From the NCBI GenBank assembly GCA_902826885.1, contig CADEGL010000002.1:24733-88732 (forward strand): a DNA stretch of 64,000 nt, written 5' to 3'. This DNA comes from an uncultured Alphaproteobacteria bacterium (GTDB lineage: Bacteria > Pseudomonadota > Alphaproteobacteria > CADEGL01). Below, one piece after another: positions 1,026 to 10,869 of this stretch; the stretch's first letter is position 1, and every line of letters begins with the position of its first letter. Position numbers and translations under genes: made by a program. The notes below the pieces were generated by a model. The model did no database searches, was not told the origin of the DNA, and saw only the letters and a program-made list of their open reading frames with translations.

Positions 1026-1102
1026 CGCCAGGTCGGGCACCGTTCAAGTCAACGGACGATCCGGTCAAGGCCGCGCTAGCCGCCGTCGCGTGGTGATGGC
1101 CT

Positions 1103-2257
1103 TCACTGCCCGACCATTTCGTCGTCCACCGCGACGATTCGGCATTTGAGCGCGGCATCGTCGCATTTCTTGAGCGCGATTTTTTGCGCCTCCTCGGCCG
1201 TCGCCTGCGCGGCGATGGTCGACCAGGCGCTGAAGCCGAATCCGACACCGATGACGAATGCCTTACCCGGCGGAGCGGCGAAATAGCTGGCCCAGGCGGC
1301 CGTCGCCTTTTCGACCCAATCCGGCGCTTTGTTGAGCCGCGTGAGGTCGTCGGGCATCGGATAGTCCGGCATCACCGGTCCCTCGGGAGGCGTGCTCCAC
1401 GTGGGCAACGACGCTTGCCGCAGGAACATGTCGACCGGCTCGCGCCACAGCGCGATTCCCTGGCGCCAAAAGAAGAGCGAGGCTCCGTCTTGTTCGAAAG
1501 GCTTTGTCACCATCAGCTCGCCCTTGCCGCCGGCTTGGCGGTAGGCATCGAAAAAGAGTTTCACCCGCTGCGGCGGCATCGTGGCGTCGTTCTCCGCGTA
1601 CAACCACAACGCGGGCACCTTGGCGGACCGGCCTGCCGCTTCGACGCTTTGCAACAGGGCCGCATCCGGACAGCTTCCGCCGGAAGCGCCGAAATTCACC
1701 ACCCCGCGCAAACCCGCCACGGTATTTCCGGCAAGCGCCACCACGCTTGCCCCCGCCGCCCCCTGTCCGACAGCCAAAATCTGGGTTTTATCCACGAAGG
1801 GTTGCCCGGCGAAATGGCGAATTACGGCCTCGTATTCGTCGGCGGTCTTTTTCGCCATCGCCGCGATGTTCTCCGCGGAGCAAGCTTTGTTCCACGCGTC
1901 CGCTTCGCCGCCCGATTTTCCGTAGCCGCGGCGCAGGAAAAAGACCGCGGCCCAGCCGCGGCGCGCGAACTCCGCGGCCTGATAGTGAAAGTGAAGCGGC
2001 GACAGCACCGCGCGATCCTTTAGATCGATCGGCCCAACCGTCATCACGGCCAGCGGAAATGGGCCGTCACCTTTCGGACGAAGGACGATCGCCTCCAAGG
2101 ATACTTCCGCGCCGTCGAGTTGGGCGGGCACCAATAGCGACTCGCGTATGAGTTCCTTCGGCGAAATGGGCGGTGCGTCGGCGTCGGCGCGGACTGGGGG
2201 GAAGAGGACGACGAAGACCGTGACGAGCAGAAATATGGATGCTTCCCGGATTCGCAT
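1103..2257 (-). CDS. Exported alpha/beta-hydrolase-fold protein lacking catalytic Ser and His (probable pseudoenzyme)
   Basis: The 384-residue product has an N-terminal signal peptide ending near ADADA, an alpha/beta-hydrolase (dienelactone hydrolase-like) domain at about 35-285, and a C-terminal module at about 330-384 ending KKCDDAALKCRIVAVDDE, reminiscent of DUF4189-type Cys-containing tails. Aligned by eye with the adjacent paralog (2275-3408), the nucleophile elbow reads GQGAAG instead of GVSAGG (Gly166 for Ser), the catalytic His is Ala259, and the HG of the oxyanion segment is VG; the acid Asp224 is kept. Catalysis by the usual triad is therefore unlikely. The ATG at 2257 follows a GGGTGGGG ribosome-binding site; a GTG nine bases earlier is the alternative. 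Last gene of a minus-strand run from 6689. Confidence 0.8.
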   Translation of the reverse strand: MRIREASIFLLVTVFVVLFPPVRADADAPPISPKELIRESLLVPAQLDGAEVSLEAIVLRPKGDGPFPLAVMTVGPIDLKDRAVLSPLHFHYQAAEFARRGWAAVFFLRRGYGKSGGEADAWNKACSAENIAAMAKKTADEYEAVIRHFAGQPFVDKTQILAVGQGAAGASVVALAGNTVAGLRGVVNFGASGGSCPDAALLQSVEAAGRSAKVPALWLYAENDATMPPQRVKLFFDAYRQAGGKGELMVTKPFEQDGASLFFWRQGIALWREPVDMFLRQASLPTWSTPPEGPVMPDYPMPDDLTRLNKAPDWVEKATAAWASYFAAPPGKAFVIGVGFGFSAWSTIAAQATAEEAQKIALKKCDDAALKCRIVAVDDEMVGQ

Positions 2258-2274
2258 TCGCCCCACCCTATTTG

Positions 2275-3408
2275 CTACGGCGTCACCAGCTCGTCATCTT
2301 CGGCGGCGATATGGCAGCGCGCGCCACCGCGCTGGCAACTCTCCAACGCCTGTTGCCGCGCATCGTCCAATGAATTTCGTCCGGCACGCCAACCCCAGGC
2401 GCTCCCCGCCCCGACAGCGAAGGCCTTGGACGGCGCGGCGCCGAGAAAATCCCTCCACGCCTTGCGGCCGGCATCGCTGGCCAGTTCGCGCGGCGAGGCC
2501 AGCTCGGCCTTTGCGTCATCGGCGGGCGGAGCGTCCCAGGTGGGCAGCCCCGTCTTGCGCAGGAAGTCGTCGACCAAGGGACGCCAGATCGCGGTGCCCC
2601 GCCGGCTAAACAAGGTATGCCCATCATCGCCGAACGGACCGACCACGATCAGTTCGGCCTTGCCGCCGGCGGCGGTGAAGGCGTCGTGGAAACGCTGCGC
2701 CAATCCGGGCGAGAAATAGCTGTCGTTCTCGGCATAGACCCACAGAGTCGGCACGCGCGCCGTCTCGCCGAAGGCGCCGAAGGCGCGCACCAGGGCGTTG
2801 TCTTCGCAAACGACGCCCGGCGACGGCGAGCCCCGCCCGCCCGCGAAGCTGATGACGGCACGCAAGCCTTCCGGTGGATCGGCCGCCGTAGCCAAGGCCG
2901 CGAAGCCGCCGGCCGAGACACCGACGATCAGGATGCGCGAGGCATCGACGAAGGGAAAAGCCCGCAGCGATTCGACGGCGGCGCGCAGATCCTTGGCTCC
3001 CTCCCGCCCCGCCGCGACATAGTTGGGTCGGCCGCACGGGCCGGCGCTTTCAGTCACATCGCCCGTCGAGCTGCCATAGCCCCGGCGCAGCACGACGGCC
3101 ACGGCCCAGCCACGCCGCGCCATTTCTTCCGCTTGGGGTCCTAGGGAGCTGACGGCGAAACGACCGCGCTGGGCCACGTCGCGCGGCGCGCCATGGGCGA
3201 TGAGCGCGAGCGGAAACGGCCCGTCGCCCGGCGGCCGGACGATGAGCGATTCGAGCGTGTGCCGCGAGCCGTCGATGGTGACGGAGAGCGTGCCGACCTC
3301 GCGCACCAGCGCATCCTTGGCCACGGGCGGCGCCGCGCGTGCGCCCGGCGCGAAGGTCGCGAACAGCGCGAACGCAAAAGCGGCAATGCGAACGCGGCGT
3401 GTTTTCAT
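2275..3408 (-). CDS. Exported alpha/beta hydrolase (dienelactone hydrolase-like), catalytic triad intact
   Basis: The 377-residue product has a signal peptide (cleavage near ARA-APPVA at 25-28) and an alpha/beta-hydrolase domain at about 30-290 with nucleophile elbow GVSAGG (Ser165), acid Asp229 in YAENDS and His264 in DDGHTLF. The oxyanion HG motif is present in IAHGAP. The C-terminal module at about 325-377 contains two Cys in ESCQRGGARC, as in the neighbouring paralog. It is likely a periplasmic or membrane-associated esterase or peptidase; the substrate is unknown. The ATG at 3408 starts 5 bp after the upstream dehydrogenase stop. In-frame sequence further upstream is the antisense of no gene but a shadow frame of that dehydrogenase. 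Confidence 0.85.
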   Translation of the reverse strand: MKTRRVRIAAFAFALFATFAPGARAAPPVAKDALVREVGTLSVTIDGSRHTLESLIVRPPGDGPFPLALIAHGAPRDVAQRGRFAVSSLGPQAEEMARRGWAVAVVLRRGYGSSTGDVTESAGPCGRPNYVAAGREGAKDLRAAVESLRAFPFVDASRILIVGVSAGGFAALATAADPPEGLRAVISFAGGRGSPSPGVVCEDNALVRAFGAFGETARVPTLWVYAENDSYFSPGLAQRFHDAFTAAGGKAELIVVGPFGDDGHTLFSRRGTAIWRPLVDDFLRKTGLPTWDAPPADDAKAELASPRELASDAGRKAWRDFLGAAPSKAFAVGAGSAWGWRAGRNSLDDARQQALESCQRGGARCHIAAEDDELVTP

Positions 3409-3413
3409 CGGCG

Positions 3414-4661
3414 CTAGAAACGATCGATCCGGTAAGGCGCAAGATCGATCATCGGCGCCTGCCCCATCACGACCTGCGCGATCACACGGCCAGTGGGCGC
3501 CGCGCCCAAGAGGCCCAGATGGCCGTGGCCGAAGGCAAAGAAGGCGTTGGCCAAATTCGGCGCGCGGCCGATGACGGGCAGGCTGTCGGGCAGGCAGGGC
3601 CGGTGCCCCATCCATTCGGAGTGCTTCGCGTTGCGCAAACCCGGCAGGATCGTCTTGCCGATGCCCAGGAAAATCTCGGCGCGCGCGTAGTTGGGCAGGG
3701 CCTCGATCCCCGCCAGTTCCACCGTGCCCGCGATGCGCACGCCCGTCTCCATGGGCGTGATCGCGATCTTCTTGTCGAGGACCATCAGCATGTTGCGCGG
3801 CGTAGCGCCCGGATCGGCGATGGTGACGTGATAACCGCGCTGGCTTTCCAGCGGCACATGATGCCCGAGCAGCTTCGCCAACGTGCGCGACCACATGCCG
3901 GACGCGATCACCACCGCGCGCGGTTTGATGTTTCCACGGTCGGTGCGCACGGCTTCGATCTTGCCGTCCGCCAGATCGAAGCCATTCACCTCGGCGCGTA
4001 GAACTTGCCCGCCCTCGCGCCCGATGCGTTCCGCCAGCGCCTGAGACAGCCGGTAGGGATTGCGGCAATGACCGTTGCCGTGGGCCCGCAACGCCACCTC
4101 GAAGATCGGCGCCAGGTCCGGCTCCAGGTCGCGGATCTCGTCCTTGTTCAGCACATCGTAGGATTCGCCGGAGGCCGCGCGCAGCTCGTTGACCAGCCGG
4201 TCGCCCTCGTAGGATTCGCGCTTCATGTAGAGGTAGAGCTGACCGGGCACGCGGATCAGGTCTTCCGCACCGGCCCAACGCACGAGCGGCATCAGCGAAT
4301 CGACGCAATGCCGGTTGAGCGCCTGGAGCGCGCTTGCGTTATGGCGCACCCGCGCGAGGCGCGTCTCGGCCATAAACCGCAACAGCCACGGCATGGCGCG
4401 CGGCAGATAGCTTTTACGGATATGCAGCGGGCCATGGGGGTCGCGCAGCCATTTGGGCACGTCCCACATCATGCCCGGCATGCCGATCGGCATGGTGGCC
4501 AGGTTTTGGATGCCGCCCGCGTTGCCGAACGACGTCATCTCGCCCGGCCCGCGGCGATCGACCAGAATCACGGGCACGCCCGCGCGCACCAGATAGGCCG
4601 CGCAACAGATGCCGACGATGCCGGCTCCCACCACGACGACAGGCGATTCCTGGCTGATCAT
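3414..4661 (-). CDS. FAD-dependent D-amino acid dehydrogenase-like oxidoreductase (DadA family)
   Basis: Predicted to oxidise an amino or imino acid, passing electrons from FAD to the respiratory chain. The 415-residue product starts MISQESPVVVVGAGIVG, a classical Rossmann FAD-binding GxGxxG, and continues through a DAO-type fold with the C-terminal segment GHGHLGLLGAAPTGR that closes the FAD site in DadA proteins. Length matches DadA (about 410-430). The start at 4661 lies 2 bp after the stop of the GNAT gene, indicating translational coupling. The substrate need not be D-alanine; glycine- or N-substituted amino acid oxidases share this fold. Confidence 0.85.
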   Translation of the reverse strand: MISQESPVVVVGAGIVGICCAAYLVRAGVPVILVDRRGPGEMTSFGNAGGIQNLATMPIGMPGMMWDVPKWLRDPHGPLHIRKSYLPRAMPWLLRFMAETRLARVRHNASALQALNRHCVDSLMPLVRWAGAEDLIRVPGQLYLYMKRESYEGDRLVNELRAASGESYDVLNKDEIRDLEPDLAPIFEVALRAHGNGHCRNPYRLSQALAERIGREGGQVLRAEVNGFDLADGKIEAVRTDRGNIKPRAVVIASGMWSRTLAKLLGHHVPLESQRGYHVTIADPGATPRNMLMVLDKKIAITPMETGVRIAGTVELAGIEALPNYARAEIFLGIGKTILPGLRNAKHSEWMGHRPCLPDSLPVIGRAPNLANAFFAFGHGHLGLLGAAPTGRVIAQVVMGQAPMIDLAPYRIDRF

Positions 4662-4663
4662 GT

Positions 4664-5125
4664 TCACGACAGTTTCTTGTTGAGGCAAACCATGGGTGTC
4701 AGCGTCCAGCCGCGGCTTTTGTAAAAATCCAAGGCCGGCCCGTTGCGCTGGTCCGCCAGAAGCTGGACACGCGCGGCGCCCTGTCCGCGTGCCCATTTCT
4801 CCGCCTCGTCGAGAAGCGCGCGGCCGATGCCCCGTCCGCGCCAGTCGCGATCCACGACAACGTCCTCGATCAAACCGGACGGCGAGCCCTCGGCCGTCGA
4901 GATGGTGAGCTGCACCGAACACATGCCGACCACTTCGCCCTTGGCATCCGCGACCAGAACGCGCGCGTTGGGCGCGGCCAGGAGCGCGCGCAAGCCCTTC
5001 TCCTGCCGCGCGGGGTCTGCGGTAAACGCGGTCTCGATGGCGAACAGCTCCCCGATCAACGCCACGAGGCGCGGAATGTCGCGCGGCCCGGCGCCGCGAA
5101 ACCGCACCGTCTTGGAATCATGCAT
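4664..5125 (-). CDS. GNAT family N-acetyltransferase
   Basis: The 153-residue product has the single-domain GNAT layout. The acetyl-CoA binding loop is DWRGRGIGRALLDEAE (motif A, R/Q-x-x-G-x-G/A) near residue 92, and FYKSRGW near 137 is the usual C-terminal motif B. It would transfer an acetyl group from acetyl-CoA to an amine; the acceptor is unknown. The ATG at 5125 (MHDSKTVRF) was chosen because upstream codons are low-complexity and unlike GNAT. It sits between the ArgH-like lyase (61 bp upstream) and the DadA-like gene (2 bp downstream), so it is probably cotranscribed with both. Confidence 0.85.
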   Translation of the reverse strand: MHDSKTVRFRGAGPRDIPRLVALIGELFAIETAFTADPARQEKGLRALLAAPNARVLVADAKGEVVGMCSVQLTISTAEGSPSGLIEDVVVDRDWRGRGIGRALLDEAEKWARGQGAARVQLLADQRNGPALDFYKSRGWTLTPMVCLNKKLS

Positions 5126-5186: not shown

Positions 5187-6689
5187 TTACCCTTTTGCCA
5201 GTTCCGCCGCGCGGCGTTCGAGGCCGCCGATGGCCTCGGCCACGCGCGATACGGCGCCCTTGTGCCATTCCGCGTGACCGGCCACGGCTTTCTCCACCTC
5301 GTCCGCGTGGGCACGCACATGGGCGGGGTTCACGCTGCCTTCCGTCACCCGCGTCTCGACGAAGCGCTTGGCGTCCAGGATGTCGCGCAGTTCGGCGTCG
5401 GTCAGCGAAACCCCGCTCGCACCCGTGGCCTTCGCGGCCGCGGCCAGCGATGCGCCAGTGGCCGTCGCGGGCGTGCGGCCCGCGTCGATCGAATCCTTCA
5501 CGAAGCGGCCGACCACATGGTGCGCCGCCCGGAACGACAGATCGAAGCGGCGGACCAGCTCGTCGGCCAGGTGACTCGTCGTACTCCAGAACGCGCCCGC
5601 GTTCTGCGCCATACGCTCCTTGCGCACGCTCAAGGTCGAGACCGTCTCTTCCATCAGGCGCAGCGAACCCAAGGTCGAATCGCCGATCTGGATGAGGACG
5701 TAGTCGGCGAACTCGAAATCGAGGTCGGTCGACGAGACGCCGCGCTGACAACCCATCATGGAGGCCAGCCAACCGGCGGCCTGGCCCGCCACTCCCTTCA
5801 CCCGCTCGCACGCATGGGGGTTCTTCTTCTGCGGCATGATGCTGCTAGTACCGGCCAGCCCGTCGGCGATCTCGACGTAGCCGAACTCCCACGACGACCA
5901 TAAATAGAAGTCGGTCGCCAAGCGTCCCAGATTGCTCATCAACAGCGCCAGCACCGCCACGCCTTCTTCCAGGACGTCGCGCGCGAACAGGCCGCCGTCC
6001 GAGGAGTTGGTCACGATCCCGTCATGGCCCAAGAGAGCCGCCGTGCGCCTGCGGTCGAGCGGCCAGGAGGTGCCGGCATTGGCCGCGCCGCCGAGCACAC
6101 CCAGGTTGGTGCGCGCATAGGCGCCGCGCAGCCGTTGCAAATCGCGCTCGAAGATCGCGGCCTGGCGCATCAAATAATGGCCGAAGGTCCAGGGCTGGGC
6201 GTGCTGCAGATGGGTGTAGCCCGGCATGACCGTATCGGCATGTTTGCGCGCGAGGGAGAGCAGCGCGCGTTCGAGCGCCAGCAGATCGCCCACCGCTTCC
6301 AGCAAAAGGTCGCGCAAAAACAGCCGGTCGGCCGAGGCGTCCTGGTCGTTGCGGCTGCGTCCGGTCTGGATGCGGCCGCCGATATCGGCGCCGACACTGC
6401 TTTCGAGCGCGTGTTCGATCTGGACCAGATAGGAACCCGAGCGCGGATCGAAGCGGAACGCGGCCGCGCCGCCGCGGTGAATGTCGAGCAACGCACCCAA
6501 GAGCTTCGCACCACGGTCGCGGCGCAAGACGCCGGTCTCGACCAGCATGACGACATGGGCCAGGTCGACCAGCGAGAAGCAGCGGAAGCGCCGCGGCATG
6601 GCCGAAAGGTTCGACGCTTCGTCATACTTGATGATGGCGTCGCTGCGGCGGCCCAAGCGCGCCTCTTCCAGGAACACGTCTTGCTTCAC
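5187..6689 (-). CDS. Argininosuccinate lyase-like protein (fumarase/aspartase superfamily), divergent
   Basis: The 500-residue product carries the superfamily landmarks GRIQTGRSRNDQD, the catalytic His segment GYTHLQHAQP, and the flexible loop TSSIMPQKKNPH with the catalytic Ser. Canonical ArgH features are missing: the N-terminal GGRF is replaced by LGRRSD, the D-x-H-x-A-I-E helix is QIEHALE, and the protein is about 35 residues longer than usual. It eliminates fumarate from an N-succinyl-type substrate in all characterised relatives. True ArgH, or a relative acting on another aminocarboxylate such as an EDDS-lyase-like enzyme, are both possible. The start is GTG at 6689 with GGAGGG 5 bp upstream. 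No other arginine gene adjoins it; argB is 19 kb away. Confidence 0.75.
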   Translation of the reverse strand: MKQDVFLEEARLGRRSDAIIKYDEASNLSAMPRRFRCFSLVDLAHVVMLVETGVLRRDRGAKLLGALLDIHRGGAAAFRFDPRSGSYLVQIEHALESSVGADIGGRIQTGRSRNDQDASADRLFLRDLLLEAVGDLLALERALLSLARKHADTVMPGYTHLQHAQPWTFGHYLMRQAAIFERDLQRLRGAYARTNLGVLGGAANAGTSWPLDRRRTAALLGHDGIVTNSSDGGLFARDVLEEGVAVLALLMSNLGRLATDFYLWSSWEFGYVEIADGLAGTSSIMPQKKNPHACERVKGVAGQAAGWLASMMGCQRGVSSTDLDFEFADYVLIQIGDSTLGSLRLMEETVSTLSVRKERMAQNAGAFWSTTSHLADELVRRFDLSFRAAHHVVGRFVKDSIDAGRTPATATGASLAAAAKATGASGVSLTDAELRDILDAKRFVETRVTEGSVNPAHVRAHADEVEKAVAGHAEWHKGAVSRVAEAIGGLERRAAELAKG

Positions 6690-7956: not shown

Positions 7957-8600
7957 CCCATCATCATGTTCCATCTTCTCTTCTCTTCGACTACGCGACC
8001 GGCGCCCTATCCGAAGGACCGGCGCTCGCCGTCTCCACCCATCTGTCCTATTGCGGCGATTGCCTGGCGGCGCTGGGGCGCTTGGAAGAGATTGGAGGTG
8101 TCGTGCTGCAATCACTGGCGCCGGCCGCGGTCGATTCCGAGTTGTTGTCGCGCACCCTCGCGCGCCTCGACGAGCAAGGCGCGAACGAGCGCAAACCGGA
8201 GCCGGAAGATGCGGCGAACGGAACATTGCCGCCTGTTCTGCGTGCCCATCTCGGGATCGGATTGAAGGACGCACGTTGGCGCTTTGCCGCGCCGCATGTG
8301 CGCGAAGCACGCCTGACGCTCGGCGGCCCGTCGCACCGCGCGAGCCTTCTGCGCGTGCCCGCCGGAAGGAACGTGCCGCGCCACACCCATCGGGGCGTCG
8401 AGTACACGGTCGTCCTGTCCGGGGGGTTCATCGACCGGGGCCAGGCCTATCGCAAGGGTGATTTCTGCGCGGCCGATCCGTCCGTCGAACACCGGCCGGT
8501 GGCCATGGACGATGCCGAATGCCTGTGTCTGATCGTGCTCGACGCGCCGGTCCTGCCCATGGGGCGCATCGGCCGGCTGATCGCGCCCTTCCTGCGATGA
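7953..8600 (+). CDS. chrR: ChrR-type zinc anti-sigma factor with cupin domain
   Basis: Holds RpoE inactive in the cytoplasm and releases it on singlet oxygen or organic peroxide stress. The 215-residue protein has an N-terminal zinc anti-sigma domain with His5, His30, Cys34 and Cys37 (THLSYCGDC) and a C-terminal cupin at about 115-200. The cupin metal ligands are His144, His146, Glu150 and His180, with the same spacing as His141/143, Glu147 and His177 of R. sphaeroides ChrR. All functional ligands are therefore present. Overlaps rpoE upstream and tspO downstream by ATGA. Confidence 0.92.
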   Translation: MTHHHVPSSLLFDYATGALSEGPALAVSTHLSYCGDCLAALGRLEEIGGVVLQSLAPAAVDSELLSRTLARLDEQGANERKPEPEDAANGTLPPVLRAHLGIGLKDARWRFAAPHVREARLTLGGPSHRASLLRVPAGRNVPRHTHRGVEYTVVLSGGFIDRGQAYRKGDFCAADPSVEHRPVAMDDAECLCLIVLDAPVLPMGRIGRLIAPFLR

Positions 8601-9082
8601 GCATGCGCCGCCGCCTCAGCGCGCGTGTCATCGCGTTCCTCATTTCGCTGGCTGCAAGCCTTGGCGTTTCCGCCATCGGCGGGCGCATCACCGCGACCTC
8701 GGTCGGCGATTGGTATCAGGCGCTGGCAAAGCCGCCGCTCAATCCGCCCGATTGGATCTTCGCGCCGGTGTGGATCACGCTTTACGTCCTGATGGCGGTC
8801 GCGGCCTGGCGCGTTTGGGATCACGGCGGCGCGGGTGCGGCGCGCGCGCTTCGCATCTACGCGCTCCAACTTGCCCTCAATCTCGGCTGGACCTGCCTGT
8901 TCTTCGGGCTGCGGCAGCCGGCACTGGCGCTGATCGAGATCGCGATTCTGCTTGCCGCGATCCTGTGGGCCACCGCCGCGTTCCGCGCCCACGACCGCAT
9001 TGCGGCGTGGCTGCTGGCGCCCTACGGTCTGTGGGTCGGCTTCGCCACCTACCTCAACTTCGGCATCGTCTCGCTGAATTGA
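8597..9082 (+). CDS. tspO: TspO/MBR family tryptophan-rich sensory protein
   Basis: A 161-residue five-helix membrane protein of the translocator protein/CrtK family, which binds porphyrins and affects tetrapyrrole and oxygen-responsive expression in phototrophs. Family features include WYQALAKPPLNPPDWIFAPV (residues about 37-56), ALQLALNLGWTCLFFGLRQP (about 95-114) and LWVGFATYLN near the C terminus. The ATG at 8597 overlaps the chrR stop, so it is probably cotranscribed with rpoE-chrR; that pairing suggests a porphyrin and singlet-oxygen link. It ends 3 bp from the convergent antiporter gene. Confidence 0.9.
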   Translation: MSMRRRLSARVIAFLISLAASLGVSAIGGRITATSVGDWYQALAKPPLNPPDWIFAPVWITLYVLMAVAAWRVWDHGGAGAARALRIYALQLALNLGWTCLFFGLRQPALALIEIAILLAAILWATAAFRAHDRIAAWLLAPYGLWVGFATYLNFGIVSLN

Positions 9083-9085
9083 GCG

Positions 9086-10477
9086 CTAGAAGAAAATGAC
9101 GGTCGTGAGAATGAAAACGGGAACCAGCACCACGGCCGCCCACAGCATGTAGGCGAAGAAACTGGGCATCTTGACGCCACCCGCACGCGCGATGGCATAG
9201 ACCATGAAGTTGGGTGCGTTGCCGATATAGCTGTTGGCACCCATGAAGACCGCCCCCGCCGAGATGGCCGCGAGAGTGAGGGCGCCCTTGGTCATCAAGG
9301 TTTGCGCGTCGCCGCCGGCCAGCTCGAAGAAGACGAGATAGGTCGGCGCGTTGTCGAGGAACGACGACAGGCCGCCCGTCAGCCAGAAATAGGCCGCGTT
9401 GTTGGGCGATCCGTCGGGATTGGAGACCAGTGCCACGAGCGGCGCGAAAGCACCCGCGCTTCCGGCCTTCAGCATGGCCAGCACGGGGATGATGGTGATG
9501 AAGATGCCGGCGAACAGCTTGGCCACCTCCGCCATCGGCCCCCAGGTAAAGCCGTTGCCCGCGCGCCGGGCCTTGGGCGTGAGCACGAGAGACGCGATGG
9601 CGACAGCCGCCATGACCGCGTCGCGCAGCAGGTACTGAACCGCCACGTCCGTGCCCAGAATATGAACGTCGCCGAGTTGGATCTTGGCACTCATCAAGAT
9701 CGCGCCGATGACAACGGCCAGGAGGAGGAAATTGACTCCCCCGCGCACGCGCAACGGATTGTCCGGCGTGGGATCGCGCCGCTTGTGGCCGTCGCGCCTA
9801 TAGATGATGCAATCCATGACGAAGAAGACGGCCAGCACCACGCCGCCGACGAACAGCGTCTCCGGCAACAGGTGCGTCGTGGTCCAGAAGAAATCGACGC
9901 CGCGCAGAAAGCCCAGGAACAAGGGCGGATCGCCGAGCGGCGTCAGCGAACCGCCGATGTTCGAGACCAGGAAGATGAAGAACACCACCACGTGAACATT
10001 GCGCTTGCGGTCGTCGTTCGCGCGCAAAAGCGGCCGGATCATCACCATCGACGCGCCCGTGGTGCCGATCACGCTGGCCAGCGCGGCGCCGATGGCCAGG
10101 ATCGCCGTGTTGGTGCCGGGCGAGCCGTGCAGGTTGCCCGATATCACGATGCCGCCCGCCACGGTGAAGAGCGCGGTGAGCAAAAGAATGAAGGGGATGT
10201 ATTCGAGCAGCGCTGTGTGGACCAGCGCTTCCACCGCCATCATCGGCCCGCCCGAAAGCGCCAGCGGCACGATGATCGCGACGGCCCACAGGGCCGCGAC
10301 CTTGCCGTGATGCTTTTCCCAGAAGTGGTGCGCGACCAGGGGAAACAGCGCGATCGACAAAAGGATGCCCGCGAAGGGCAGCGCCCAGGCCAGACCCAGC
10401 GAGGCGCCATCGAGCGCGGCGGCCTGGGCAAGCGACGGCGTGCCGGCAATGGCGAACGCCACGACAAAAGCGCGCAT
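9086..10477 (-). CDS. NhaD-type sodium:proton antiporter (ArsB/NhaD superfamily)
   Basis: A polytopic inner-membrane protein of 463 residues with about 11-12 hydrophobic segments. Conserved polar motifs inside membrane segments include LVSNIGGSLTPLGDPPLF (about residue 160) and FLDNAPTYL (about 350), both typical of NhaD-like antiporters, with GANSYIGNAPNFM near the C terminus. It would exchange Na+ (or Li+) for protons. The start at ATG 10477 gives a signal-like first helix; a GTG at 10513 would add 12 residues but has no ribosome-binding site. Convergent with tspO with 3 bp between the stops. Confidence 0.85.
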   Translation of the reverse strand: MRAFVVAFAIAGTPSLAQAAALDGASLGLAWALPFAGILLSIALFPLVAHHFWEKHHGKVAALWAVAIIVPLALSGGPMMAVEALVHTALLEYIPFILLLTALFTVAGGIVISGNLHGSPGTNTAILAIGAALASVIGTTGASMVMIRPLLRANDDRKRNVHVVVFFIFLVSNIGGSLTPLGDPPLFLGFLRGVDFFWTTTHLLPETLFVGGVVLAVFFVMDCIIYRRDGHKRRDPTPDNPLRVRGGVNFLLLAVVIGAILMSAKIQLGDVHILGTDVAVQYLLRDAVMAAVAIASLVLTPKARRAGNGFTWGPMAEVAKLFAGIFITIIPVLAMLKAGSAGAFAPLVALVSNPDGSPNNAAYFWLTGGLSSFLDNAPTYLVFFELAGGDAQTLMTKGALTLAAISAGAVFMGANSYIGNAPNFMVYAIARAGGVKMPSFFAYMLWAAVVLVPVFILTTVIFF

Positions 10478-10541
10478 GATCCCGGATCGCGACAGTCCGA
10501 TGGTTCGCCTCACAACGACAAGATTACATGAGTGGAGTAAT

Positions 10542-10618
10542 TGGCGCGCCCGGAAGGATTCGAACCTCCAACCTCCAGATCCGTAGTCTGGCGCTCTATC
10601 CAGTTGAGCTACGGGCGC
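10542..10618 (-). tRNA. tRNA-Arg (anticodon ACG)
   Basis: On the minus strand a 77-nt cloverleaf runs from 10618 to 10542. The acceptor stem pairs GCGCCCG with CGGGCGC, the discriminator is G and CCA is encoded (10544-10542). The D arm is TAGCTCAACTGGATAGAGC. The anticodon stem CCAGA/TCTGG encloses the loop CTACGGA, giving anticodon ACG, read as ICG for CGU/CGC/CGA arginine. The T arm contains GGTTCGAATCC. Confidence 0.97.
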
Positions 10619-10869
10619 GCTGAGGGAAAACGGCGGCGGGTAATCACGTCGAACGACGCGAAGGCGCCTTGCCGCGCGGCGCGCACAGTAATCAAATCAC
10701 CCCCCCAAGGCAAGGCCGCGACGCCCGCAAAGACGGGAGATTTCCCGTTCTTTCCAAGCCCTTCCCCCAGTTGCAAAGCCCCGTTGTTGCTGTCATTTTC
10801 TCCTCTGGCGCCTCGGGAGGCGGGGCGCCGGCCCATTTCTATTCGACGCAGGGCATCCAAGGGGCAAGC

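Follow-up and report, generated by a model that had tools for sequence, protein, structure and literature searches.

A tandem paralog of an exported alpha/beta-hydrolase without its catalytic Ser and His: a candidate pseudoenzyme in an uncultured alphaproteobacterium

Introduction

Two adjacent genes of an uncultured alphaproteobacterium raise the question of what becomes of an exported hydrolase whose active site has been lost: does it decay, or does it serve in a role other than catalysis? Both lie in the window, by which we mean the whole stretch of 64,000 nucleotides that was analysed (contig CADEGL010000002.1, positions 24,733 to 88,732); all coordinates below are window positions. P0001 (2275..3408, minus strand, 377 aa) is an exported alpha/beta-hydrolase with an intact catalytic set. 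P0002 (1103..2257, minus strand, 384 aa) is an exported paralog without the Ser, the His and the oxyanion His, and is the pseudoenzyme candidate of this study. We put it slightly above an even chance that P0002 is a retained exported pseudoenzyme that acts by binding, a diverged paralog of P0001.

The gene pair

On the minus strand P0001 comes first and P0002 follows after a gap of 17 nt. A Shine-Dalgarno-like GGGTGGGG (2261..2268, minus strand), recognised by eye, lies between the genes just upstream of the P0002 ATG, and an alternative GTG start is possible at 2266. The two proteins match over their full length in BLASTP (239 bits, E 2e-80, 38% identity) and are 40% identical in a MAFFT alignment; a search of the genome with P0002 gave two matches only, P0001 and P0002 itself. 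The first-pass annotation had described a tandem pair of exported hydrolases, and both genes are indeed full-length paralogs lying where it placed them on the minus strand.

By eye, both N-termini resemble signal peptides. The two proteins also share the four Cys that are conserved in the family. In profile searches P0002 matches PF02129 with 30 bits (cut-off 23). The C-terminal module of the family weakly resembles DUF4189 (PF13827), with 20 of 42 members matching at E 0.01; P0001 reaches 17.8 bits, below the curated cut-off of 25, and the profile search gave no DUF4189 match in P0002. PF10503 (PHB depolymerase-like esterase) was dropped as the family, being without a match in the genome.

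Loss of active-site residues

The alignment assigns four catalytic positions to P0001, all on the minus strand: the nucleophile elbow GVSAGG with Ser165 (2905..2922), the catalytic His264 (2617..2619), His72 of the HG oxyanion motif (3193..3195) and the triad acid Asp229 (2722..2724). In P0002 the elbow GxSxGG is replaced by GQGAAG (residues 164-169, 1751..1768, minus strand), with G166 in the place of S165. The catalytic His of DDGHTLF has become Ala259 in QDGASLF (1481..1483, minus strand), and Val74 stands for the oxyanion-loop His (2036..2038, minus strand), so that HG reads VG. The acid of the former triad is kept, D229 of AENDS corresponding to Asp224 of AENDA (1586..1588, minus strand). 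Further changes, absent from the first-pass annotation, are G167A, E120A and the conversion of the loop FAGGRG to FGASGG. At the three lost sites the codons of P0002 are 2, 3 and 2 bases apart from those of P0001.

How unusual this is can be judged from a family sample of 140 distinct homologs and P0001 (141 sequences), or 142 rows with P0002. The homologs were drawn from samples of the Alphaproteobacteria and of the whole phylum and from GTDB species genomes, where the search motif was the Asp region and hence unbiased towards Ser or His. Ser, His and Asp are each present in 141/141 and the oxyanion His in 140/141. The triad Asp, P0002 included, is found in 142/142, and P0002 is the only one of the 142 without Ser and His, departing from the family at three of the four catalytic sites. 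Since all other members keep Ser and His in these columns, the losses in P0002 are real and unique within the sample. The by-eye reading of GQGAAG for GVSAGG, Ala for His and VG for HG is therefore backed by the family alignment; the check that had been proposed for it, the Ser and His columns in relatives, came out in its favour through homologs carrying both residues, no ortholog having been found. A family-motif scan of the species genomes gave 483 relatives, and the best 80 loci of the 483 all have the triad. Where we call homologs catalytic, their activity is presumed from these motifs. The sole other homolog with an altered oxyanion His (L161 1495-2817) has Asn there and an intact Ser, Asp and His.

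We rule out that P0002 was misaligned or has its triad elsewhere, because the 142-row alignment places the four sites unambiguously. Sequencing error was likewise rejected, as there are several separate codon changes of several bases each. Together these explanations have a negligible probability.

Lacking both nucleophile and base, P0002 could not carry out standard serine hydrolysis, and its residues make it very improbable that it is a serine hydrolase. With the oxyanion-loop His also gone and the pocket loop rebuilt, no serine-hydrolase chemistry would be expected of it. It could be argued that P0002 catalyses through other residues, either with a nucleophile at a new place or by using the retained Asp224 for a reaction other than hydrolysis, and two serines, Ser171 and Ser192, are indeed close in sequence to the elbow and to the rebuilt loop. 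However, no His is found near the old site in the P0002 sequence, none of the homologs has its triad at other positions, and the oxyanion loop has changed as well, which makes catalysis of this kind very unlikely.

Predicted structure and the pattern of change

AlphaFold predicts a full alpha/beta-hydrolase fold for P0002 (pLDDT 89, pTM 0.86), with the caveat that the supplied homolog alignment pulls the model towards the family fold; P0001 is given the same type of fold (pLDDT 92, pTM 0.87). Among solved structures the P0002 model comes closest to dienelactone hydrolase and feruloyl-type esterases, its best PDB match being the dienelactone hydrolase 3f67 (E 5e-12), and the P0001 model comes closest to esterases and acylaminoacyl peptidases. 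A sequence search of the PDB with P0002 gave no match.

We examined conservation in a 42-row alignment, taking as near-invariant those columns in which 95% or more of the other sequences agree. Of the near-invariant columns in the active site, 7/12 are changed in P0002 (H72V, S165G, G167A, G190A, G191S, R192G and H264A); elsewhere 3/39 are changed and 36/39 kept. The difference has a Fisher p of 0.0006, which is indicative only, because the active-site set was picked from motif positions after a first look at the alignment. Outside the active site, the match of P0002 to the family falls with conservation quintile (0.85, 0.50, 0.39, 0.33, 0.12) much as it does in an equally divergent but catalytic member, L118 (0.85, 0.50, 0.37, 0.30, 0.15). 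Within the active site the match of P0002 is 0.37; the catalytic members used for comparison reach 0.58-0.89.

The gene itself looks like a coding gene. Its codon-position GC contrast is typical of one (GC2 0.49, GC3 0.77), and its frame of 384 codons, with an SD-like site, is open, containing no frameshift or premature stop by which it could be classed as a pseudogene. When neutral change was simulated down to 45% identity, the frame stayed open in fewer than 1% of cases, even with indels left out. The pattern of change in P0002 thus differs from random decay. The first-pass annotation was right that the gene is free of stop codons and frameshifts and that the Asp (Asp224), the fold (as modelled) and the Cys (all four) are kept. 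Its suggestion of selection for a non-catalytic role stands in part: the catalytic machinery is lost while fold, Cys and frame are kept, but selection itself is supported only indirectly.

Relatives and history of P0002

A motif scan of about 85,000 species genomes turned up no ortholog of P0002, and neither did a search of about 1,450 targeted genomes; the searches covered class, order and phylum samples. P0002-specific peptides found no relative in genome contigs, no relatives were found in viral contigs, and a plasmid search with P0002 gave only distant CocE/NonD-like hydrolases at about 30% and no ortholog. P0002 is so far known from the genome of one uncultured bacterium.

In G001, the one further genome of this genus, the gene order is that of the window, gpmA - hydrolase - dadA - GNAT - argH-like, and P0002 is absent. 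Between gpmA and the P0001 ortholog G001 carries an intact gene, FecR-like by eye (L023 7689-8315), that weakly matches surface-adhesin and retention-module models. In the window a remnant of the 3' end of this gene is left next to gpmA (1026..1096, plus strand). P0001 and its G001 ortholog have a dN/dS of 0.15. At L023 about 8320-10740 we observed a 2-nt deletion in the P0001 ortholog and a 1-nt deletion in dadA; these frameshifts may reflect either decay of the locus or assembly error.

The age of P0002 is constrained by the synonymous distance of the two genomes, a dS of 0.37-0.68 depending on the gene. Unconstrained drift since the genus split, assuming 0.20-0.28 substitutions per site on the P0002 lineage, would leave P0001 and P0002 with an expected identity of 56-65%, whereas 39% is observed. 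As dS is too small for drift to that level, P0002 is either an older paralog lost in G001 or a gene acquired from another source. The trees leave its origin undecided: in one P0002 groups weakly with L003 (94/87), the other does not resolve its placement, and a clade of P0001 and P0002 is not rejected (p-AU 0.13), so that a lineage-specific duplication giving the pair is neither shown nor rejected by them. The end branch of P0002 is long, at 1.27-1.31 changes per site.

The main rival to a retained pseudoenzyme is recent decay: after a long life as a catalytic paralog, P0002 would have lost its active site only lately, have no function and be on its way out of the genome. Its presence in one genome and absence from the same-genus relative, together with the long end branch, would fit such a history, as would the G001 frameshifts if they mean that the locus is dispensable rather than misassembled, and the structural constraint on P0002 may be a legacy of an earlier, catalytic stage. 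Against it stand the number of changes in the active site (seven columns, with two to three bases altered at each of the three key codons) and a gene that is intact in its reading frame, its ribosome-binding site, its four Cys and its codon-position bias. The low identity to P0001 also implies that the frame has stayed open for longer than the genus split, or that the gene was acquired. We regard recent loss as doubtful, though it deserves to be taken seriously.

A non-catalytic partner of P0001?

If P0002 is a retained pseudoenzyme, it would still yield a folded, disulfide-bearing protein. It would presumably be made from the same transcript as P0001 and exported to the same compartment, where it may act by binding, most likely on or with P0001. 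Adjacency, the 17-nt spacing and the presumed shared export are the grounds for proposing such a partnership. On account of the tandem position and probable joint expression, the form of this explanation that we favour, tentatively and at less than even chances, is that P0002 serves P0001 as a non-catalytic partner or as its regulator. A more specific version, in which the dead P0002 is a subunit, obligate or regulatory, of the live P0001 and the two form a heteromeric exported hydrolase with one working site, is a doubtful possibility. That P0002 is instead a binder of ligands of the same kind seems unlikely, if conceivable.

Tandem pairs of the family recur in one other alphaproteobacterial genus (G091, G294 and G371), with two distinct copies in constant order, all of them catalytic. 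In the conserved pairs of one genus (g90/f88; L006, L032, L033 and L041) the upstream copy reads GE/DSVGG and the downstream copy GQSAGG, both catalytic, and in one of the g90/f88 pairs the genes overlap. Tandem pairing is therefore stable in this family; alone it is not proof that P0002 is a partner. Several observations speak against a retained pseudoenzyme descended from a paralog of P0001: sisterhood with P0001 is not clear in the trees, given the weak grouping with L003, the recurring pairs have both copies catalytic, and the only other genome of the genus has no P0002.

P0002 might instead be a stand-alone binding protein, for a ligand or for surface adhesion, with a function unrelated to P0001. 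Non-catalytic alpha/beta-hydrolases such as neuroligin do act as adhesion proteins (PMC5943944), and across eight loci we recognised no fixed neighbour gene of the family (by eye, the neighbours being without profile annotation). Nevertheless, the tandem position and close spacing after P0001 suggest joint expression, and a weak promoter and terminator scan of the locus, which performed no better than chance, recognised no promoter of P0002's own. We consider a stand-alone binder improbable.

Comparison with known systems

The closest known proteins are the exported CocE/NonD- or dienelactone-hydrolase-like serine hydrolases of Alphaproteobacteria (PF02129 / PF12146 / PF01738), which include homologs from Azospirillum and Bradyrhizobium. 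P0002 shares with them the signal peptide, the alpha/beta-hydrolase domain, the two-Cys C-terminal module, the length and the conserved positions. It differs in having lost both Ser and His, kept by all 141 other members, along with the oxyanion His and the pocket loop; it is the only inactive member seen in the family as sampled.

DPP6 and DPP10 are inactive paralogs of S9 peptidases that have lost the catalytic Ser and partner other proteins. They differ from P0002 in being membrane proteins with a beta-propeller, and their partners are potassium channels. Neuroligins, glutactin, gliotactin, neurotactin and the C-terminal domain of thyroglobulin are non-catalytic alpha/beta-hydrolase proteins (PMC5943944). 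Like P0002 they are secreted or extracellular and combine an alpha/beta-hydrolase fold with the lack of a working triad; they function by protein binding (PMC5943944). Unlike P0002, they belong to an animal cholinesterase-like family on another branch of the superfamily and their function is known. Non-catalytic alpha/beta-hydrolases are well known in animals, and P0002 is alike only in a general sense; in the literature searched for bacterial alpha/beta-hydrolase pseudoenzymes we found nothing directly comparable.

The hydrolase family is widespread, and our analysis identified no characterised member. If P0002 has been retained as a partner, the P0002-P0001 pair would be a small bacterial system for studying the conversion of a tandem paralog into a non-catalytic subunit; coming from one genome, its wider meaning is limited until orthologs appear. 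There is also a warning for annotation pipelines: with a score over the PF02129 cut-off, P0002 would be labelled a hydrolase despite having no nucleophile.

Genomic neighbourhood

Immediately upstream of P0001 lies a gene like FAD-dependent D-amino acid dehydrogenase (3414..4661, minus strand; NF001933, below cut-off). Profile searches identified a GNAT acetyltransferase (4664..5125, minus strand) and an argininosuccinate-lyase-like gene, a second argH (5187..6689, minus strand). The latter scores 323 bits, a stronger argH (612 bits) being on another contig, and its product is possibly a catabolic lyase of the argininosuccinate-lyase superfamily. At about 65-240 of the window, upstream of gpmA, we noticed by eye GC-rich stretches resembling inverted repeats (ccctctccgcccg...gggggagaggg and similar), which look like dispersed palindromic repeats.
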